Positions 1 through 8,651 of a stretch of 10,383 nt of DNA are shown piece after piece. The DNA comes from Dehalococcoidia bacterium (GTDB lineage: Bacteria > Chloroflexota > Dehalococcoidia > GIF9 > UBA5629). Every line of letters begins with the position of its first letter. The first letter of the stretch is position 1. Under the pieces are notes generated by a model that did not search any database, had not been told where the DNA came from, and was given only the letters and a program-made list of their open reading frames with translations. The stretch covers positions 1 to 10,383 of the forward strand of contig JAFGLP010000143.1 of assembly GCA_016927965.1 (NCBI GenBank). The letters are read 5' to 3'. The position numbers were made by a program, and so were the translations under genes.

Positions 1-774
1 AAAAGGAAATATATTGTTATGCTTTCCGGCTGCGCCGCCATGGTGATCGGCATGAAGAAGGATAAGGATGGAAAGACCCTTTACGAAAAATATTCGCCCA
101 ATTTCGAGGCAGGCGGCATTATCAACGTGGGTTCCTGTGTATCCAACGGACATATCAGCGGGGCCGCTATCAAAATAGCGAACATCTTCGCTACCCTGCC
201 GCTGCGCGGCAACTACGAGGTAATAGCCGACTATATTTTGAACCGCGTGGGCGCCTGCGGTCTGGCCTGGGGTGCTTATTCACAGAAGGCTGCCTCCATC
301 GCCACCGGGTTTAACCGTCTGGGTATACCGGTGGTGCTGGGCCCGCACTCAGCCAAATACAGAAGGCTGTATATGAGCCGCAAGGAAGAGGATGACTGGA
401 CGGTGATGGATGGCAGGGAGAGAAAACTGGTCGACACTGGAGAACCCTCTCCGGAACACCTGGTCACAGTTATAGAATCCAAGGAAAGGGCGATGATCAC
501 AATGGCCAAGCTCTGCATCAGGAAAAACGATACACCGCAGGGCCGCCAGCTCAAGCTCACGCACTATATAGGACTGCACAAGCAGCACATGGGAGGACTG
601 CCCGACGACCTGCATCTTTTCGTCAGAAAAGCCTCGGACATACCGATCTTCTTCAAAAAGGAAGTACTGGCCTATCTGGAAAAAGCAGGCTGGAAAGAGA
701 AGCAGTCGTTGTCCCTGCCGACCGTGATCGGCACTTACGACTCTGATATCTCCATTGATTCGGTGATACACTGA
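1..774 (+). CDS. cdhA: CO dehydrogenase/acetyl-CoA synthase complex, alpha subunit (CdhA), C-terminal part
   Basis: This is the last 257 codons of the nickel CO dehydrogenase subunit of the archaeal-type CODH/ACS complex. The subunit interconverts CO2 and CO at the Ni-Fe-S C-cluster. The frame is open to the left edge, so the ATG at 19 is internal (the residues before it read KRKYIV) and roughly 500 N-terminal residues lie outside. Two cysteine motifs are visible: LSGCAAM (Cys codon at 31-33) and [10 protein letters not shown] (Cys codon at 136-138). By remembered alignment they match the last two cysteine ligands of the C-cluster in CO dehydrogenases. The segments [18 protein letters not shown] and [20 protein letters not shown] are typical of CdhA rather than of bacterial CooS/AcsA. 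The gene ends in three consecutive in-frame stops (TGA TAA TAA, 772-780). cdhB starts 25 bases after the first stop, so the two are surely co-transcribed. Family assignment is secure; the missing N-terminus with its extra Fe-S clusters cannot be judged. Confidence 0.93.
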
Positions 775-799
775 TAATAAATTGAGGATTAAGTAGAAA

Positions 800-1351
800 A
801 TGACGGGTAACCTGCCGTACCACAGGGTAAACGTACTGACGGGCACCAAAGCCGCCCGCATAATCGAGGATGCCGCTGAGTACGCCCACCTGATAAAGCG
901 CTCTGAGCGGCCGCTGCTGGTGGTGGGGCCAAGGGCGCTGACCATGTCCCTGGAGGGTAAACCGGTCATAGAATACGCCGTGGAGATCGCCGGAACACTG
1001 AACATCCCGGTCTGCGCTACAGCACACACCAGGAAAAAGCTGGTTGAGCTGGGCCTCGAACCGGCCAGCAGCTATGACTTGGTGGAGATAATCAACCACC
1101 TTAAAGACCCCGGCTGGAAGGGGACCAGGAGAGACGGCAACCATGACCTAGTGATGTTTATCGGCATACGGACCGATCTGGCCGAGCAGGGGCTGTCCAC
1201 ACTGAAACACTACGCCAGGCACCTGCGGACTATGACCCTATGCAAATACTACTACCCCAATGCTTCGTATAGCCTGCCTAATATGAAAGACGGCAAGTGG
1301 AAAGAATTCCTGGATGCCCTGATAATGAATTTAAAGGAGAACGCAGGATAA
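800..1351 (+). CDS. cdhB: CO dehydrogenase/acetyl-CoA synthase complex, epsilon subunit (CdhB)
   Basis: A 183-residue protein, close to the roughly 170 residues usual for CdhB. This small subunit binds CdhA in the archaeal complex and has a nucleotide-binding-like (DHS/TPP-type) fold; its exact role in electron transfer is not settled. Recognisable segments are LIKRSERPLLVVGPRAL (residues 31-47), the strand LNIPVCATAHTRKK (67-80), DLVMFIGIRTDLAEQGLSTLK (from 116), and the C-terminal KYYYPNASYSLPNM (149-162), a CdhB hallmark. The ATG at 800 follows a GAGG ribosome-binding site at 784-787 with 12-base spacing. Its stop (1349-1351) directly abuts the cdhC start. Typical bacterial acetogens lack this subunit, so its presence between cdhA and cdhC marks the locus as archaeal-type. 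No truncation or frameshift is seen. Confidence 0.93.
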   Translation: MTGNLPYHRVNVLTGTKAARIIEDAAEYAHLIKRSERPLLVVGPRALTMSLEGKPVIEYAVEIAGTLNIPVCATAHTRKKLVELGLEPASSYDLVEIINHLKDPGWKGTRRDGNHDLVMFIGIRTDLAEQGLSTLKHYARHLRTMTLCKYYYPNASYSLPNMKDGKWKEFLDALIMNLKENAG

Positions 1352-2578
1352 ATGGATGGTGTTTTTCCGGTAGACATAGGCCCCCAGTACGAGGGGGAGG
1401 TGATCAGAAAAGCCGACCTGTACGTTGAGCTGGGTGGGCCGAACGTCAGTGGAAAATTCGAGCTGTTGACGGTCAAAAGCGCCGACCAGGTTGAAAATGA
1501 GAAAATCGAAATCATCGGGCCGGACATCCAGGACATGCAGGAAGGCGGCAGCTTCCCGATAGGGCTGGTAATCGACGTAGCCGGGGAGCGGCTGGAAAAG
1601 GACATGGAACCTGTCATGGAACGCCGCATGCACCTCTACGGCAACTATATCGAGGGCTTCTATCATATGAACCAGCGGGATGACGTATGGATGAGGCTCA
1701 ATAAAGAGGCCTACGGTAAAGGGCTAAACTCCCTGGAAGAAATCGGCAAGATATTGATGTTCCTCTATACTTCGGAGCTGGATGTCATCGAAAAGATCGC
1801 CATTACTTTCATCACCGACGAAAAGAATATTGCCGGGATGCTGCCGTCAGTACGCGAAATCTACAAGGCCAGGGACATACGGGCCAGGGGACTGAAAGAG
1901 GAAGACGTGGAGGAGTTTTACAGCTGCGCTCTCTGCCAGAGCTTCGCCCCCACCCATATCTGCATCGTCAGCCCGGAGCGGATAGCCAACTGCGGGGCCA
2001 TCAGCTGGTTCGACGGCAAGGCAGCCTATAAGCTGGACCCGGAAGGTCCCGTGCAAAAGATCACCAAAGGCGAATGCCTCGACCCGGTCCGTGTTGAATA
2101 CTCGGGCTGCAACGAACTGGCCGCCGAGAAATCCATGGGCAGCTACACCCGCGTCTACCTGCACAGTGCGTTCGGCTTTCCCCATACTTCCTGCGGGTGT
2201 TTCCAGGCCATCTGTTTTTATATACCGGAAGCGGATGCTTTCGGCATCGTGAACCGCGACTTCCCGGGAGAAACGGTCATCGGCACTTCGTTCTCCACCA
2301 TGGCCGGCGAGGCCAGCGGCGGGCAACAGATCGAGGGCTATCTTGGTCTGGCAATGGAGTATTTGCGATCTCCCAAGTTCCTGCAGGCGGATGGAGGATG
2401 GAAACGTATCGTATGGATGCCGCAGGTGATTAAAGAGATGTACCGTGAAGCCTGCCCCGCAGACCTGTTCGATAAAATCGCCAGTGAGAACGACGCTAAA
2501 ACTACCGACGAGCTCGTCGAGTTCCTCAACAGGGTGGGACACCCCTGGATCAAGGGAGAAGTCGAACTGCCGGTATAA
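1352..2578 (+). CDS. cdhC: Acetyl-CoA synthase, beta subunit of CODH/ACS (CdhC, short archaeal type)
   Basis: This 408-residue protein forms or cleaves acetyl-CoA from CO, a corrinoid-bound methyl group and CoA at the Ni-Ni-[4Fe-4S] A-cluster. The ligand set is complete: C192-x2-C195-x8-C204-x9-C214 for the cubane, and C281-G-C283 for the nickel sites. This spacing equals that of bacterial ACS. The N-terminus (FPVDIGPQYEGEVIRK, then YVELGGP) aligns with archaeal CdhC, so the start at 1352 is well placed. An AAAGGAG site at 1333-1339 precedes it, and the ATG abuts the cdhB stop. The protein lacks the roughly 300-residue N-terminal region of bacterial AcsB (about 730 residues) and appears to lack the charged C-terminal tail of methanogen CdhC (about 470 residues). 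The cdhD and cdhE corrinoid-protein genes do not follow; the operon ends here and gyrB comes next. Confidence 0.96.
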   Translation: MDGVFPVDIGPQYEGEVIRKADLYVELGGPNVSGKFELLTVKSADQVENEKIEIIGPDIQDMQEGGSFPIGLVIDVAGERLEKDMEPVMERRMHLYGNYIEGFYHMNQRDDVWMRLNKEAYGKGLNSLEEIGKILMFLYTSELDVIEKIAITFITDEKNIAGMLPSVREIYKARDIRARGLKEEDVEEFYSCALCQSFAPTHICIVSPERIANCGAISWFDGKAAYKLDPEGPVQKITKGECLDPVRVEYSGCNELAAEKSMGSYTRVYLHSAFGFPHTSCGCFQAICFYIPEADAFGIVNRDFPGETVIGTSFSTMAGEASGGQQIEGYLGLAMEYLRSPKFLQADGGWKRIVWMPQVIKEMYREACPADLFDKIASENDAKTTDELVEFLNRVGHPWIKGEVELPV

Positions 2579-2594
2579 ACATAAGCCCACCGAA

Positions 2595-2638
2595 AAGCGT
2601 TGTTATCTGGCAGGGGACGAGAAATCCCGCAGTCGCTT
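2595..2638 (+). terminator. Imperfect inverted repeat after cdhC, possible weak terminator
   Basis: Outer arms AAGCG (2595-2599) and CGCTT (2634-2638) enclose inner arms GC (2610-2611)/GC (2629-2630) and GGGA (2614-2617)/TCCC (2625-2628) around the loop CGAGAAA. It lies 17 bases past the cdhC stop, where the Cdh operon should end. There is no U-run after it and the pairing is interrupted, so it is not a convincing intrinsic terminator. It may be an RNA 3'-end structure or chance. Confidence 0.2.
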
Positions 2639-2664
2639 AACAGTATGCATTTAAACGCCAAATA

Positions 2665-2673
2665 TGGTATACT
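2665..2673 (+). promoter_or_regulatory. Extended -10 promoter for gyrB
   Basis: TGG directly followed by TATACT (2668-2673) fits an extended -10 element (TGn plus five of six bases of TATAAT). No good -35 sits at 17 bases; TTAACA at 2637-2642 is 25 bases away, too far. Transcription from about 2680 would give gyrB a leader of about 117 bases. This would separate gyrB from the Cdh operon. Confidence 0.5.
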
Positions 2674-2796
2674 ATCTACGAAATTGCAAGGTCTAGTATG
2701 TTTGAATTCAAAAAACACAATATATAGTGGTGATTTTCATAATAACCTGCTGCTGGGAAGTGCTGGACGGAAGAAATCCACCTGAAAAAAGAAGCC

Positions 2797-4719
2797 ATGA
2801 CACCAGAACAAATCAACAATTCCAATAACGGCGAATATACCGCAGAAAATATACGCGTCCTGGACGGGCTGGAAGCGGTCCGCCTGCGGCCAGGCATGTA
2901 TATCGGCGATACGGGCAAAGACGGCCTGCATCACCTCGTATACGAGATCGTCTATAACAGCATAGACGAGGCGATGGCCGGTTTCTGCGACCATATCCAT
3001 GTCATCATACATCCTGACAACTCAGTAACCGTAACCGATAACGGCCGTGGCATCCCGGTGGATATTCACCCCGAAAAGGGGGTCTCCGCCCTTGAGCTGG
3101 TAATGACGACCTTACATGCCGGCGGCAAGTTCGGTGATGGCGCTTACAGTGTTTCCAGCGGCCTGCATGGGGTGGGTGCTTCGGTCGTCAATGCCCTCTC
3201 AACCTGGATGGTGGCTGAGATATCCCGCAACGGCAAGATCTGGCGCCAGGAATATAAACAGGGTGAGAGCCTGAATGAAGTAAAAGCTACAGGCAAGACC
3301 GATGAAAACGGTACTGCTATTACTTTTATGGCCGATACCGAGATCTTCGGAGAAATTGTTTATGATTTTAATGTCCTCTGCGAGAGGTTAAGAGAGCTAG
3401 CGTTTCTCAACAAAGGCGTCTCAATAAGCCTCATGGATGAAAGGACCGACAACGAGGTCTCATATTTCTTCGAGGGCGGCATAGCCAGCCTGGTCCGCCG
3501 AATAAATAAGAACCGCCAGGTGCTGGATAAATCAATCTATATTGAAGGAAGGGTCAATAGTACCGGTGTCGAGATCGCCATACAGTACAACGACGGCTAC
3601 TCGGAAAATGTGACCGCTTTCGCCAACTGCGTTAACACCAAGGAAGGCGGCACCCATATGACTGGTTTCCGGGCGGCCCTGACCCGCGTGCTTAACGATT
3701 ATGCCCGCAAGAATAAGTTCTTGAAAGAAAATGACCCCAATCTGTCAGGCGAAGACATCCGCGACGGATTAACCGCAGTAGTCAGCGTTAAGGTCGCCCA
3801 ACCCCAATTTGAAGGCCAAACGAAAGGCAAACTGGGCAACCCCGAAGTTAAAGGCCAGGTGGAATCGATAGCCAGCGACGGCCTGAACGAGTACCTGGAA
3901 AAGCACCCCGAAGAGGGCAAATCAATAATTGACAAGTGTTTGCTGGCGGCCAAGGCCAGGGAAGCCGCCCGCAAAGCCCGCGACCTCATACTCAAGAAGA
4001 CCGGACTCGAGTTCGGAACCTTGCCGGGAAAACTGGCCGACTGTTCCAGCAACAACCCCAGAGACTGTGAGCTGTACCTGGTGGAGGGCGACTCGGCAGG
4101 AGGCTCAGCCAAGCAGGGTCGCGACCGCAATTTCCAGGCCATATTGCCCCTGCGCGGTAAGATACTCAACGTGGAAAAAGCCGCCAAGGACAGGATCTTT
4201 GATCATGAAGAAATACGGGCACTGATAACCGCGCTGGGCACGGGCATCAGCGAAGCCTATGATTATTCCAAACTGCGCTACCACCAGATCATTATCATGA
4301 CTGATGCTGACGTGGATGGCGCCCACATCCGCACGCTGCTACTGACTTTTTTCTACCGCAATATGTCTGACCTTATTGAGAACGGCCACCTCTTTATCGC
4401 CCAGCCGCCGCTTTACCGCGTGCAGGCCGGCAAAAAGCAGGCCTGGGTCTACTCGGATGCGGAAAAGGATGCCGAGCTGGCCAAGCTGAAAACCGGCGGC
4501 AAAGTTGATGTACAGCGCTACAAAGGCTTGGGTGAAATGAGCCCCGAGCAATTATGGGAAACAACCATGAACCCGGCTACCAGGACGTTGTTAAAGGTGC
4601 ATGTCGACGATGCCATCAAAGCCGATGAGGTTTTCCACATGCTGATGGGAAGCGATGTACCACCTCGCAAGTCTTTCATTCAGGCACATGCCCGCAGTGT
4701 AAAGAACCTGGATATCTGA
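2797..4719 (+). CDS. gyrB: DNA gyrase subunit B
   Basis: This 640-residue ATPase subunit of DNA gyrase works with GyrA to introduce negative supercoils. It is the usual length for the short (non-proteobacterial) form. The GHKL ATPase domain shows YEIVYNSIDEA (catalytic Glu50, Asn54), DNGRGIP (81-87), HAGGKF (107-112) and SSGLHGVG (120-127). The TOPRIM domain shows EGDSAGG (430-436) and DADVDG (503-508), and the protein ends in the typical RSVKNLDI. The start is forced: the frame is closed by a stop at 2743-2745 and no ATG or GTG lies between; only a weak AGAAG precedes the ATG. Odd: residue 53, next to catalytic Asn54, is Tyr where the family nearly always has Asp (VVDN). The gene runs towards the acetyltransferase gene on the other strand, with 4 bases between the stops. 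GyrB and ParE are hard to separate by motif alone, but gyrB is much more likely near dnaA. Confidence 0.96.
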   Translation: MTPEQINNSNNGEYTAENIRVLDGLEAVRLRPGMYIGDTGKDGLHHLVYEIVYNSIDEAMAGFCDHIHVIIHPDNSVTVTDNGRGIPVDIHPEKGVSALELVMTTLHAGGKFGDGAYSVSSGLHGVGASVVNALSTWMVAEISRNGKIWRQEYKQGESLNEVKATGKTDENGTAITFMADTEIFGEIVYDFNVLCERLRELAFLNKGVSISLMDERTDNEVSYFFEGGIASLVRRINKNRQVLDKSIYIEGRVNSTGVEIAIQYNDGYSENVTAFANCVNTKEGGTHMTGFRAALTRVLNDYARKNKFLKENDPNLSGEDIRDGLTAVVSVKVAQPQFEGQTKGKLGNPEVKGQVESIASDGLNEYLEKHPEEGKSIIDKCLLAAKAREAARKARDLILKKTGLEFGTLPGKLADCSSNNPRDCELYLVEGDSAGGSAKQGRDRNFQAILPLRGKILNVEKAAKDRIFDHEEIRALITALGTGISEAYDYSKLRYHQIIIMTDADVDGAHIRTLLLTFFYRNMSDLIENGHLFIAQPPLYRVQAGKKQAWVYSDAEKDAELAKLKTGGKVDVQRYKGLGEMSPEQLWETTMNPATRTLLKVHVDDAIKADEVFHMLMGSDVPPRKSFIQAHARSVKNLDI

Positions 4720-4723
4720 TTCT

Positions 4724-5179
4724 CTAACTTTCCAGCTTTATATCATAATTGGCCACAGTGCTGCGGTGAAATCCAAGGTTCTCTACAGATTTACGAAGTT
4801 TCTCATTTTTTTCGGGGAATATAGCACGCACTGTATTTACACCTTCTGCGCTACACCTGTCCAATACCTCATCAACCATCCGCCTGCCGATACCCCTGCC
4901 ACGAAATTCATCAGCAACATCAATAGCATTTATGACACAGAATTCATTAAACGGCATACCCATATACATCAGGCGGGCAAGTATAAAACCGGCAAATTTT
5001 TTCTCCACCTGAGCAACAAAGCTAAAATCAAGCGGGCCTCCCGGATCAAGCGCCACCATATCCTTATAGGTAATCTGGCTTTTACCCCCACCGATTTTCC
5101 TGTCCAGATCGATGACTGCATCAATGTCAGCCCTGGTCATTCGCCTTACTATTACCCCTTCCCTGCCAAGCATACTCAT
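4724..5179 (-). CDS. GNAT-family N-acetyltransferase, substrate unknown
   Basis: A 151-residue single-domain protein of the Gcn5-related acetyltransferase superfamily, which moves an acetyl group from acetyl-CoA to an amine. The acetyl-CoA pyrophosphate loop is RGRGIG (residues 93-98) after the strand CVINAIDVADEF; the C-terminal NEKLRKSVENLGFHR (125-139) is the motif B region. The N-terminal VRRMTRADIDAVIDLD is also typical. It resembles RimI-like enzymes in size, but no feature fixes the substrate. The start at 5179 has a strong GGAGG site (5185-5189) at 5-base spacing; an in-frame ATG at 5173 is a less likely alternative. A promoter at 5292-5321 and a terminator-like hairpin at 5194-5240 both lie upstream, suggesting conditional expression. 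Its stop is 4 bases from that of gyrB, so the two transcripts probably overlap at their 3' ends. Confidence 0.9.
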   Translation of the reverse strand: MSMLGREGVIVRRMTRADIDAVIDLDRKIGGGKSQITYKDMVALDPGGPLDFSFVAQVEKKFAGFILARLMYMGMPFNEFCVINAIDVADEFRGRGIGRRMVDEVLDRCSAEGVNTVRAIFPEKNEKLRKSVENLGFHRSTVANYDIKLES

Positions 5180-5327: not shown

Positions 5328-5933
5328 TCATTTGCCTTTGTATAGACCATGTTCTTCAATATAGTTTTTCACATCATCGGGTACCAGGTAACGGACTGAC
5401 TTCTCCTCCACCAGACGCTCCCTGACATCTGTTGAGCTGATGCCTACAGGGGTACCCTCGAATTCTATCATGCGTTTTGAAAGTCCGGGCATGGACTCTT
5501 CCATCTCTGCAATGTCCGGCCGGGATATACCGGGCCGGGGAAATGTCACCAGGGTCGCCATCTTTGATATGCGATAAGGGGCCTTCCACTGAGGCATGGT
5601 CTTCAATCCATCCCACCCGATCAGCAGGAATAGCTTTGTATCACTGCCTAGGTCCCTGCTCAACTGCTCAAGCGTATCGACCGTGTAAGACCAGCCCGGA
5701 TGTTCTATTTCAATAGTCAAGAGCTCAAAGAGAGGGTTTGACTGTATGGCCAATCTGACCATCTCTACCCTGTGCTCAGCCCCTGTTATACAACGATTGG
5801 CTTTCATCCAGGGTTCCCCGGCCGGAATAAACATGACCTTATCTAGCTCTAGGGCTTCCCGGATCTCCTCGGCAATGATAAGATGCCCGATATGTACCGG
5901 ATCAAATGTCCCACCCATTATCCCAACTTTCAT
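5328..5933 (-). CDS. nadD: Nicotinate-mononucleotide adenylyltransferase
   Basis: NadD transfers AMP from ATP to nicotinate mononucleotide, giving deamido-NAD in NAD synthesis. The 201-residue protein begins MKVGIMGGTFDPVHIGH, holding the nucleotidyltransferase signature GTFDPVHxGH (residues 8-17). It also has IPAGEPWMK (36-44) and the C-terminal ISSTDVR (165-171), which binds nucleotide phosphate. Length is normal. An in-frame ATG at 5948 lies inside obgE, but the ATG at 5933 is preferred: AAGG lies 8 bases before it, the family starts at MKVGI, and it sits one base past the obgE stop (5935-5937). It is thus translationally coupled to obgE and depends on the obgE promoter. At 106-109 it reads GWDG where the family usually has GAD plus a small residue, a mild variation. 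Confidence in function is high. Confidence 0.95.
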   Translation of the reverse strand: MKVGIMGGTFDPVHIGHLIIAEEIREALELDKVMFIPAGEPWMKANRCITGAEHRVEMVRLAIQSNPLFELLTIEIEHPGWSYTVDTLEQLSRDLGSDTKLFLLIGWDGLKTMPQWKAPYRISKMATLVTFPRPGISRPDIAEMEESMPGLSKRMIEFEGTPVGISSTDVRERLVEEKSVRYLVPDDVKNYIEEHGLYKGK

Positions 5934-5934
5934 A

Positions 5935-6996
5935 TCAATTGCCTTCATCTACCGGTTTAGGCCTGTAGACAACCTCTGGTTTACTTTCTCCGGCTGACTG
6001 CAGTTTCCGTTCCGTTACCAGACCATGCACAGCGGTGATAAGGCCTGCAAGGCCTTTTTCCTCCTTGGCGGAGATGAAATATACGGGCCATCCTTTATCC
6101 TGCATTGCCGCCTGGATTTCTTCAACCCTGGAGGTAGTTTCAAGCAGGTCAACTTTATTAATCACAACTACACTTTCTTTTTCTGCTATTGCAGGATCCA
6201 CCATGGCAACCTCTTCCTGCAATTGCAGCAGGTCTTTCTCAACATCCTGTGAGCAGGCTTCCAGCAGATAAATCAGCACGTCAGCCCTGCCAGCTTGGCG
6301 CAGGAACGCGTTGCCCAGTCCTTTTCCTTCATGTGACCCCCTGATCAATGCGGGTATCTCCGCCCAAATATACTTATCTATCCCATCATTAACAACACCC
6401 CTGACTGGTTCTCTGGTTGTAAAAGGATATTCTGCAATTTTCGGCTTCGCTGCCGATACAGCAGCCAGCAAAGCAGATTTCCCGCTGTTAGGAAGACCCA
6501 GCATACACACGTCTATTGGAATGATTATCCTTAGTATTATGTTATATTCTTCACCGGCTTCACCTGGCTGAAAAATATGCGGCGTTTTGCGGGTTGCGGT
6601 AGCAAAATGCACATTTCCCTTCCCTCCCCTACCACCCCTTACTGCCAGTAGTTTTTTTCCATCTTCTTGCAGGTCCATTACCAATAACTCTTTATCAGGC
6701 TCTTTGACATAAACAGCGGTCCCGACCGGCACTTTGATTACCAGAGTTTCCGCATTAATGCCATGCATTTTGTTTGCCCCTCCCCTGCCGCCAGCTCCAG
6801 CCTTAAAAACATACTTATGCTTGAATACGCTCAGGTCCTCCATATTACCGTCAGCCTGAAAATATACATCACCTCCCTTTCCACCATCACCTCCATCAGG
6901 ACCTCCAAAAGGCAGAAACTTCTCACGTCTGAAACTTGCCAGCCCATTGCCTCCATCACCTGCTTTAATTGTTATTTCAACATTATCAACAAACAT
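5935..6996 (-). CDS. obgE: Obg-family GTPase, short form with altered G3 motif
   Basis: Obg proteins bind the large ribosomal subunit and act in its assembly and in stress signalling. The 353-residue protein has the glycine-rich OBG domain (1 to about 157, including GGPDGGDGGKGGDV and GGRGGKGNVHF) and a G domain. G1 is GLPNSGKS (167-174), G2 is YPFTT (190-194), G4 is NKVD (280-283) and G5 is SA (309-310). Two oddities stand out. The G3 motif, normally DIPG in Obg, reads EIPA (213-216), so both the Mg-associated Asp and the gamma-phosphate Gly are replaced. The C-terminal OCT domain is absent; the protein ends about 23 residues after the G domain. G1 also has Ala where Thr is usual after GKS. 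No ribosome-binding site precedes the ATG, but a strong extended -10 lies 39 bases upstream. nadD follows in the same operon. It could be a divergent Obg paralogue rather than the only Obg. Confidence 0.9.
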   Translation of the reverse strand: MFVDNVEITIKAGDGGNGLASFRREKFLPFGGPDGGDGGKGGDVYFQADGNMEDLSVFKHKYVFKAGAGGRGGANKMHGINAETLVIKVPVGTAVYVKEPDKELLVMDLQEDGKKLLAVRGGRGGKGNVHFATATRKTPHIFQPGEAGEEYNIILRIIIPIDVCMLGLPNSGKSALLAAVSAAKPKIAEYPFTTREPVRGVVNDGIDKYIWAEIPALIRGSHEGKGLGNAFLRQAGRADVLIYLLEACSQDVEKDLLQLQEEVAMVDPAIAEKESVVVINKVDLLETTSRVEEIQAAMQDKGWPVYFISAKEEKGLAGLITAVHGLVTERKLQSAGESKPEVVYRPKPVDEGN

Positions 6997-7184
6997 AATT
7001 TTAATTAATAATCCAATATATAATATATCTATTGATTATATCATCATCCTCATTATAAACTGGTTTATGTTGTGGAAGATAGCTATGCAGACTATGAGAG
7101 TAGAATGAAGCTGAAAGCGATGTTTAAAAGATATGACGGTTATACACAAAGAGTTATGATTTGTCCACAAAGAGTAAAGAGGCA
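6997..7184. other. dnaA-obgE spacer, candidate replication-origin element with DnaA-box-like sites
   Basis: This 188-base spacer lies just past the dnaA stop. It contains TTATACACA (7140-7148), a full match to the TTATNCACA DnaA box, and TTGTCCACA (7161-7169), one base off TTATCCACA in the same orientation. A weaker reverse site TGTGGAAGA (7071-7079; 7 of 9) also occurs. The left third (about 6997-7060) is very AT-rich, as expected of an unwinding element, though it also holds the obgE promoter. Origins commonly flank dnaA, so this is the best candidate in the window; the box number is small and no strand-skew data were computed. Confidence 0.45.
7035..7043 (-). promoter_or_regulatory. Extended -10 promoter for obgE-nadD
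   Basis: On the minus strand, TGA (7043-7041) directly precedes a perfect TATAAT (7040-7035), giving the extended -10 form TGnTATAAT. No clear -35 is present. Transcription from about 7028 leaves a leader of about 31 AT-rich bases without a ribosome-binding site before the obgE ATG. A second TATAAT lies a little upstream (7057-7052). Confidence 0.5.
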
Positions 7185-8543
7185 TTAACGGGGATTGCTG
7201 GATTTCAACATAATACGGATATCTTCAATGGATTTGCTAAGCTGAGAATCCGTACTTATTTGAGTGGATATTTTTTGGCAGCCGTGTATAACCGTTGAGT
7301 GGTCTCTATCGCCCAAAATCTTACCGATTTCAGCGAGGTTGCAGTTGTTCTGCTGACGGAGCAAGTACATGACAATGTGGCGGGCGCGTGCTGTCTTCAG
7401 GTCCCTCTTTTTACTGGTGATATCTTCGGGCAAGACAGCATAATAATCAGCGACTGCTCCTATCACTGATGAAGCAGGGTAGTGGCCAGTGCTCTCTTTA
7501 GAGACTGAGATCATGTCAGCGAGCAACTGCCTGGCAGCGTTTATATTCAGGGTGCTGCCTTCCAGCCTGGCATAGGTTGCCAGCCGTATTAACGCGCCCT
7601 CCAGCTCGCGGACGCTGTGATGAAAGTGCGTTGCCAGAAATTCCAGGATAGACGGGTCGAAATCAGCTGACAGCGCAGTTGCCCTCAATTCAAGGATGGC
7701 CAGCCTGGTCTTATGATCTGGCGGATAAATATCTGCCACCAGCCCGCCTTCCAGTCTGGAACGTAAACGTACATTGAACGACGTAATATCACGGGGGGGG
7801 CGGTCGCCGGTTATGACAACCTGTTTGTTGTCGGCCAGGAAGTCGTTAAGTATATGGAAAATGCATTCCTGAGTCTGTGTTTTACAACTGAGGAACTGAA
7901 TATCATCCAGCAAGAGGACATTCACGTTACTGAATTTATACCTGAATTCTTCGGCATTCTTATTACGTATTGCCACGATAAACTCATTGGTAAATTGCTC
8001 AGCACTCATGTACACCGCTGATAAATCTAGCAGCCTGACAGCATGACCGATGGCATGTATCAGGTGTGTTTTTCCGGTGCCGGTGCCGCCGTAAATATAA
8101 AATGGATTAAAGATAGCCCCCGGATTTGCAGCTATCTCGATAGCAGCTGTATAAGGCAGGCGGTTGCAATCGCCCGATACAAAGGTGCTGAAAGTCAACT
8201 TTGGATTGAAGAAATAGGCCTTGTTGGCAGGTTCAGGGACTTTAAGGCTCGTACCGCCATCAGGCATTAATCCGGCTTTGATCTTGACGGCCTGATCAAT
8301 GGCCTGGACCTGGAAACTCACCTCAGCGTTTTGGCCGATTAATGTCGAAACAATACGGCAGACCACCGAATGGAGCCTGCTCTTCAGCCATTCGGCAATG
8401 AACGCTGTAGGAACTGCGACCGTAAATATCCCATAACTATAGTCCAGTCCCCTGGTATCTTTCAGCCAGGTATCATAATTTACTTTACTAACTTGAAGTT
8501 GGAGCTCACCCAGAGCCGCCCGCCATATCTTATCAGCTTGCAT
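7185..8543 (-). CDS. dnaA: Chromosomal replication initiator protein DnaA
   Basis: DnaA binds DnaA boxes at oriC, opens the duplex and loads helicase. The 452-residue protein has the usual order. Domain I begins DKIWRAALGELQLQVSKVNYDTWL. The AAA+ domain carries Walker A GGTGTGKTHL (152-161) and Walker B LLLDD (210-214), followed by the RLRSRLEGGL segment. The C-terminal DNA-binding domain carries GDRDHSTVIHGC. The ATG at 8543 (MQADKIW) is chosen because the family begins here. The frame continues to a TTG at 8621, but those 26 residues match nothing I know. The ribosome-binding site is weak (GGAA 12 bases before the start). A C8 run on the coding strand (7793-7800), encoding part of RPPR, is a possible slippage or sequencing-error spot. 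dnaN does not follow; obgE lies downstream on the same strand across the candidate origin spacer. Confidence 0.97.
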   Translation of the reverse strand: MQADKIWRAALGELQLQVSKVNYDTWLKDTRGLDYSYGIFTVAVPTAFIAEWLKSRLHSVVCRIVSTLIGQNAEVSFQVQAIDQAVKIKAGLMPDGGTSLKVPEPANKAYFFNPKLTFSTFVSGDCNRLPYTAAIEIAANPGAIFNPFYIYGGTGTGKTHLIHAIGHAVRLLDLSAVYMSAEQFTNEFIVAIRNKNAEEFRYKFSNVNVLLLDDIQFLSCKTQTQECIFHILNDFLADNKQVVITGDRPPRDITSFNVRLRSRLEGGLVADIYPPDHKTRLAILELRATALSADFDPSILEFLATHFHHSVRELEGALIRLATYARLEGSTLNINAARQLLADMISVSKESTGHYPASSVIGAVADYYAVLPEDITSKKRDLKTARARHIVMYLLRQQNNCNLAEIGKILGDRDHSTVIHGCQKISTQISTDSQLSKSIEDIRIMLKSSNPR

Positions 8544-8651
8544 ATGCAATACAAATTCCGTACTATATTTTTTTTGCCGGGAACCGAAAAAAGGCGCGAA
8601 AACTCCCCTACCGAGAGACAAACAAACATTTTTAATAATAATTTAGAAAAA

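Follow-up and report, generated by a model that had tools for sequence, protein, structure and literature searches.

Archaeal-type cdhABC genes adjoining gyrB in a Dehalococcoidia-type bacterium and a related lineage of CdhA sequences without C-cluster ligands

The stretch of DNA analyzed here (10,383 nucleotides of contig JAFGLP010000143.1, assembly GCA_016927965.1; the whole stretch is called the window below) begins inside a gene cluster for carbon monoxide dehydrogenase/acetyl-CoA synthase (CODH/ACS) and continues into gyrB and further chromosomal genes. The following features were found in the window by profile and open reading frame (ORF) annotation.

1..774, plus strand: 3' part of cdhA; the frame runs in from the window edge and encodes the C-terminal 257 residues of about 765
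800..1351, plus strand: cdhB, CODH epsilon subunit, 183 aa (TIGR00315, 136.2 bits, cut-off 101.2)
1352..2578, plus strand: cdhC, acetyl-CoA synthase beta subunit, 408 aa (NF003379, 626.8 bits, cut-off 372)
2579..2796, no strand: cdhC-gyrB spacer of 218 bases with the conserved TGGTATACTAT at 2665-2675, an extended -10-like element
2797..4719, plus strand: gyrB (NF004189, 1008 bits)
4724-5179, minus strand: GNAT, below every NCBIfam cut-off
5328-5948, minus strand: nadD
5935-6996, minus strand: obgE
7185-8621, minus strand: dnaA
8784-9731, plus strand: fmt
from 9786, plus strand: zinc peptidase

A sequence-only reading of the window had described archaeal-type cdhA-cdhB-cdhC genes, with an epsilon subunit and a short CdhC, between bacterial flanks (gyrB, dnaA, and fmt); the profile scores and chain comparisons bear out each of these points. 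The cdhA stretch covers part of Rossmann fold 2 through the C-terminal extension of the CODH alpha subunit. In the NCBIfam search, its product matched TIGR00314 with 378 bits (profile positions 526-761 of 784), under the cut-off of 781 because only the C-terminal third of the protein is present, and no CooS-family match was obtained for this fragment. The window CdhB matched archaeal epsilon chains, and its closest solved structure is the epsilon subunit 1ytl (78.8 bits). As for CdhC, it also exceeds the cut-off for TIGR00316 (584.8 versus 355.95 bits) and shows 463 bits to the Methanosarcina thermophila CdhC chain 9c0s. It consists of the A2 and A3 domains only, without the A1 domain and without the methanogen C-terminal extension, and ends just past A3; all of the A-cluster cysteines (Cys192, 195, 204, 214, 281, and 283) were found in it.

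A scan of GTDB genomes yielded 56 cdhC loci. In the metagenome-assembled genome (MAG) closest to the window by CdhC (Zod_Metabat.1459, locus L001), cdhA is of full length, and its product reaches 834 bits with the Ethanoperedens alpha chain; three Methanosarcina-type chains give 660-702 bits. Three features of clade A CODH/ACS, namely, a CdhA-type alpha subunit, the epsilon subunit CdhB, and an A1-less CdhC with A-cluster cysteines, are present in the window. Judged by these sequence comparisons, CdhA, CdhB, and CdhC are all of archaeal type. The organism is a Dehalococcoidia-type member of the Chloroflexota; among the 120 CdhC matches listed (of 4946), five carry organism names, and all five are Dehalococcoidia or Chloroflexota.

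Partner genes that the sequence-only reading had named, including cdhD, cdhE, and methyl-branch genes, were sought in relatives. In L001, rnhA lies between cdhA and a divergent acsE-cdhD-cdhE-nuoE-nuoF series. The gamma and delta subunits scored 549 and 353 bits, and AcsE scored 222.7 bits, under its cut-off of 259. In addition, methylenetetrahydrofolate reductase (MTHFR, PF02219) was detected in 28/28 genomes of relatives, formyltetrahydrofolate synthetase (FTHFS) in 23/28, and FolD in 11/13. Archaeal Mch was found in none of 13 such genomes, in a search in which the positive controls matched. The methyl branch in the relatives is therefore folate-type.

Since L001 also carries the acsE-cdhD-cdhE-nuoE-nuoF genes, the window is read, with a probability of about 0.9, as the end of a cdhABC operon of a six-subunit hybrid CODH/ACS from a Dehalococcoidia-type bacterium, brought to the gyrB side by rearrangement. 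The relatives L001, L002 (a LacPavin MAG), and the database sequence P0122 indicate what the complete CdhA, the other subunits, and the folate-type methyl branch would look like. In such a system, an archaeal-type CdhA2B2 CODH would reduce CO2 to CO at the Ni-Fe-S C-cluster, and the CO would move through a channel inside the protein to the CdhC A-cluster; CdhC itself would dock on CdhA, at Rossmann fold 2 and the C-terminal extension. The methyl group would pass from methyltetrahydrofolate via AcsE and the corrinoid protein CdhDE to CdhC, where it would be joined with CO to form acetyl-CoA; the series, given here in its presumed direction, would be reversible.

Enzymes of this kind are known, and the caution in the sequence-only reading that the type may not be new was right. 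PMC6305446 describes a six-subunit hybrid CODH/ACS (archaeal CdhABC with bacterial AcsCDE) in Unc8 (NPL-UPA2), Ca. Desulforudis audaxviator, and Chloroflexi RBG_13_51_36, and favours, following Adam 2018, a single transfer of CdhABC from Euryarchaeota. A hybrid CODH/ACS is also reported in PMC9751293 for putative homoacetogens of two serpentinite-hosted systems. The window shares with the systems of PMC6305446 archaeal CdhABC in a bacterium, with AcsE and corrinoid-protein genes nearby in L001; RBG_13_51_36 is itself one of our loci (L035). It differs in that cdhABC of its lineage is detached, turned, and placed beside gyrB, and in that Cys204 of its CdhC is retained; in L035 and 25 other loci, Ser stands at this position. 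The window genes are thus a further member of a known, laterally acquired enzyme, together with its chromosomal place.

Compared with the methanogen acetyl-CoA decarbonylase/synthase of M. thermophila (9C0S/9C0T; PMC11474084), the window shows the same CdhA/CdhB/CdhC layout, the lack of A1, the A-cluster cysteines, and the alcove Phe (Phe198 in the window), whereas its CdhC has 408 aa instead of 472 and is without the C-terminal extension of about 75 residues.

The replacement of the third A-cluster cysteine (motif CxLCQSFAPTHxC) by Ser was observed in CdhC of 26/52 loci rows, the RBG_13_51_36-type group (L022-L029, L031, L032, L034-L046, L048, L050, and L055), including three Syntrophaceae loci. 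CdhC rows shorter than 290 aa (L051-L054) were left out of the alignment.

The complete C-cluster has six ligands (His and five Cys). Two of the ligand cysteines (C549 and C584 in M. thermophila numbering) fall within the window, and both are kept, as is the acid-base Lys. The window CdhA stretch is 94.6% identical to P0122, 91.8% to L002, and 84% to L001. All six ligands are kept in 119/119 listed matches of the L001 CdhA search besides L001 itself (best 120 of 2421), P0122, P0123, and P0208 among them; the ligand His is kept in the N-terminal piece of G002. These residues suggest that the CODH of the window is probably active.

Several points weigh against the reading of the window as part of a complete hybrid enzyme. 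The window covers neither the E/F domain nor four of the six ligand sites. CdhA of L001, the closest MAG by CdhC, has His249Asn, Cys277Ser, His119Gln, and His122Arg on a long branch, and this ligand loss indicates that CODH decay may occur in the window clade. FTHFS was not found in 5/28 and FolD in 2/13 genomes of relatives. As for the donor and the direction of transfer, archaea are represented in the trees by no more than two CdhA sequences and a single CdhC sequence.

One alternative is that the CODH of the window is already inactive and that the operon serves ACS alone. In L001, whose CdhC is 91% identical to that of the window, the ligand His and one C-cluster Cys are missing from CdhA, which has a branch of 0.15 compared with 0.017 for P0122. 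Between the window and L001, the ratio of nonsynonymous to synonymous substitution rates (dN/dS) is 0.119 for CdhA and 0.197 for CdhB, higher than for CdhC (0.061), and a related gyrB-linked lineage, described below, is C-cluster-less. The window itself, however, keeps both covered ligand cysteines, the acid-base Lys, and cdhB, and its CdhA stretch is 94.6% identical to the intact P0122, so that we consider inactivity improbable.

The losses in L001 (L001:6317-8614) mean either that CODH activity was lost early and independently here or that the MAG contains an error. They resemble Ni-CODH group A-6: PMC6344411 lists clade A groups with partial C-cluster loss, A-4 (D,P) and A-6 (N,S), at His and Cys1. 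Another change was noted at the first E-cluster cysteine, which is His in CdhA of L001-L008, L049, and P0122-P0240 (119/119 P rows) and possibly ligates a cluster.

The gene order cdhA-cdhB-cdhC-gyrB-GNAT-nadD recurs with the same orientation in L001 and L002, and in L001 the synteny with the window extends on through obgE-dnaA-fmt-peptidase. The gyrB genes beside cdhC are 94% (L001) and 91% (L002) identical to that of the window. The cdhC-gyrB spacer can be aligned among the window, L001 (218 bases each), and L002 (216 bases), and TGGTATACTAT is identical in the three; it is probably the gyrB promoter, and a consensus scan revealed no sigma-70-type site in the spacer. According to the careful CdhC tree, the window, L001, and L002 group together with support of 100/100.

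In the 56 loci, gyrB was found near cdhC in 12, in two arrangements; where over 8 kb of sequence precedes cdhC, the count is 8/33 loci. In L006, as in nine loci of the C-cluster-less lineage, gyrB flanks the cdh cluster from the other side and is on the opposite strand, the annotated order in L013 being gyrB(-) acsE-cdhD-cdhA-cdhC-cdhE-nuoE-nuoF. Because gyrB is close in both arrangements, we infer that the proximity of the cluster to gyrB is old in this group and that the window arrangement is probably a derived rearrangement. The lineage would have inherited a cdh cluster near gyrB-nadD-obgE-dnaA, and cdhABC would later have been turned to read toward gyrB.

The linkage to gyrB, which the sequence-only reading had marked for checking, is therefore real, as judged by comparison of assemblies rather than of reads. 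Artificial joining of archaeal DNA to a bacterial contig with gyrB, through misassembly or binning, which might be suspected since the window starts inside cdhA and shows a single junction, is very unlikely because the junction recurs with conserved intergenic DNA in two MAGs whose titles point to different sites, in addition to the Dehalococcoidia or Chloroflexota names of the five named CdhC matches and the 12 gyrB-linked loci. Equally negligible is the possibility of ordinary bacterial AcsA/AcsB: CdhC can be aligned to the C-terminal half of C. hydrogenoformans AcsB (401 bits), but the window has an epsilon subunit and an A1-less CdhC, and L001 CdhA, with its 660-834 bits to archaeal alpha chains, shows only about 21-51 bits (maximum 50.9) to CooS/AcsA-type chains, a comparison of bit scores rather than a broad phylogeny. 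Both possibilities had been given by the sequence-only reading as grounds for refutation, and neither was borne out.

The related lineage (hereafter, the pseudo lineage, and its alpha subunit pseudo-CdhA) comprises loci L012-L017, L021, L033, L053, and L056, in which the gap between cdhA and cdhC is 69-102 bases with no cdhB between. No cdhB was found in 9/9 pseudo-lineage genomes, an absence that is only as good as the assemblies. The C-, B-, and D-cluster ligands were mapped to M. thermophila numbering via conserved motifs, with the ligands of CODH-II as reference; either C276 or C277 may be the ligand, and both are lost in the pseudo lineage. CdhA rows shorter than 430 aa, including L012, were left out of the ligand alignment. 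Nine loci contain most of the gene. In these, the replacements affect the ligand His and Cys276/277, 322, 520, 549, and 584 as well as Cys72 and Cys76, and Cys75, 78, 83, and 93, which have B-cluster-type spacing, are retained.

The protein-database sample gave a similar picture. It comprised the first 50 matches of the L013 CdhA search (P0241-P0290; 120 of 735 listed, the remaining listed rows being of intact type). No Cys was present at any C-cluster position in 49/50 clusters, P0289, the earliest branch, keeping three; the ligand His is retained solely in P0243, and the acid-base Lys634 is absent in 50/50. In the 47 rows that reach the region, Cys72 and Cys76 (the putative D-cluster) are always lost and the four B-type cysteines always kept. 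The E-cluster columns are missing in 38 rows, and the ACS-facing helix positions are unchanged in all 50 clusters. The full residue set of catalytic Ni-CODHs (His, five Cys, and the acid-base Lys) is thus not found in pseudo-CdhA. Groups A-4 and A-6 of PMC6344411 both keep Cys2-Cys5, whereas in 49/50 pseudo clusters all are lost. A relocated C-cluster cysteine was also considered (M. thermophila C642 versus C624) and dropped, since neither fits the ligand motif.

The pseudo lineage forms one clade both in the CdhA tree, which was built on a sample of the database rows (27 sampled rows; Shimodaira-Hasegawa-like approximate likelihood ratio test, SH-aLRT, 100), and in the CdhC tree (8 rows, 100/100). 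Its sister relation with the window clade had SH-aLRT 90 in the quick CdhC tree and was not resolved in the careful one; gyrB identity to the window, 80-88% for the pseudo lineage versus 70% for L006, favours it.

We consider it likely that a Dehalococcoidia lineage has turned an archaeal-type CODH into a catalytically dead scaffold of ACS that is without the epsilon subunit, C-cluster, and D-cluster cysteines, and mostly without the E/F clusters, but retains the B-cluster-type cysteines and the ACS-docking helix. By analogy, the protein would do as a separate chain what the A1 domain does within bacterial ACS. In bacterial AcsB (1RU3, 9G7I), A1 is fused to ACS, whereas pseudo-CdhA is encoded by a gene separate from cdhC in 10 loci, has about 692-764 aa, and keeps the B-cluster-type cysteines. 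That A1 arose by duplication of the Rossmann 2 domain of a CODH has been put forward as a speculation (PMC11474084).

Alternatively, the C-cluster-less CdhA may be a decaying gene or may have acquired a new catalytic role. In the domain-wise comparison (approximate borders set by us; 51 pseudo rows, namely, L013, L014, L021, and P0241-P0288), identity to active forms is 43% in the Rossmann 1 region, lower there than elsewhere, and dN/dS of pseudo-CdhA is above that of three intact pairs. The retained B-cluster-type cysteines, with which the protein could still carry one Fe-S cluster, would suit a new role. Against both possibilities, the frames are uninterrupted (692-764 codons) in 9/9 loci holding most of the gene, dN/dS is 0.069-0.140 in six pairs, the ACS-facing positions are the same in 50/50 clusters in which the catalytic residues are gone, and the neighbouring CdhC keeps its A-cluster cysteines in 9/9 pseudo-lineage loci tested. 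Decay or a new role therefore appears rather unlikely compared with the scaffold function.

No description of Dehalococcoidia CdhA without C-cluster ligands was found in titles, abstract openings, and passages of the papers listed in searches of the open-licence PubMed Central (PMC) literature. In PMC13240472, sequences with altered C-cluster cysteines were removed before the analysis, and the pseudo lineage could have been discarded there for this reason.

A second degenerate CdhA was noted in L020 (L020:8599-9936; 445 aa, with large deletions), where the cdhA-cdhC gap is 64 bases, cdhB was not found in the genome, and the A-cluster cysteines of CdhC are kept. Its tree position is unsure because of a long branch.

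As for the CO supply in the pseudo lineage, a TIGR00314 search of nine genomes did not reveal a second intact cdhA. Apart from the pseudo copies, the search gave another partial frame in G019, namely, that of L012, which CdhC places in the pseudo clade, and short matches resembling ferredoxin or CooS. Matches to TIGR01702 (CooS) were found in 6/9 of these genomes, one of them partial. Thirteen CooS matches were listed from pseudo-lineage, window-kin, and active genomes; 11 were examined, and the site was readable in 10/11. All ten readable frames (L061-L063, L079-L084, and L086), including all five within pseudo-lineage genomes, have NIE[A/T]GQE, with Glu at Cys1. This pattern fits Ni-CODH group D-1 (PMC6344411), and the Glu-bearing Ni-CODH-V is said in PMC13240472 to have no CO chemistry. 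CooS was therefore rejected, on sequence grounds, as the likely replacement source of CO.

Judged by these residues, the CO2-to-CO step is very probably absent in the pseudo-lineage genomes. Since no working CODH was seen in the nine genomes, ACS of the lineage would work without an attached CO source, either on free CO or by cleaving acetyl-CoA. The latter use of ACS is reported for D. mccartyi, which is without CODH (PMC7005905), and the two cases are alike in that ACS is kept in Dehalococcoidia without CODH activity. According to the same text, both CODH and AcsE are absent in D. mccartyi, whereas the pseudo lineage keeps a C-cluster-less CdhA under selection, an AcsE-like gene in L013 (227.5 bits, cut-off 259), and PF02219 (MTHFR) matches. 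A missing MTHFR, as in D. mccartyi, is not supported for our genomes, in view of the PF02219 match in 28/28. That source also states that all known Dehalococcoidia lack metF, which is hard to square with this count, though PF02219 is broader than MetF. A MAG titled Dehalococcoides mccartyi (L010) has full cdhA-cdhB-cdhC, and PMC7005905 says that Dehalococcoides lack CODH; this MAG is probably mislabelled.

In our view, the C-cluster-less lineage matters more than the window genes. Pseudo-CdhA of L014 exceeds the TIGR00314 cut-off (827 bits), that of L013 is just under it (752.5 versus 781.3 bits), and several database names of pseudo-CdhA read CODH/ACS alpha. Profile annotation can thus call the protein a CODH, and a complete Wood-Ljungdahl pathway could be ascribed to such genomes. 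The lineage offers living material for ACS function without CODH and bears on how a CODH domain may become an ACS-supporting one, a question raised but left open in PMC11474084.

A few other observations concern the window and the loci of the scan. An Rfam search across the window gave no match. The region between obgE and dnaA (6983-7291) is AT-rich, shows a GC-skew turn and DnaA-box-like sites (that at 7140 exact), and is a possible oriC; window-wide, 22 such sites were counted versus 15.8 expected, not clearly over chance. In L009/L078 (CP070642), the match to cdhB is split, with one piece near cdhA and the other, about 765 kb away, near cdhC, and CdhA reads through; the split represents an inversion breakpoint or an assembly error. 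Finally, L003 has an extra ORF of 233 aa between cdhA and cdhB (L003:8728-9429), weakly DUF166-like (83 bits, cut-off 200), and a cdhA-cdhB gap of similar size also occurs in L004-L008.

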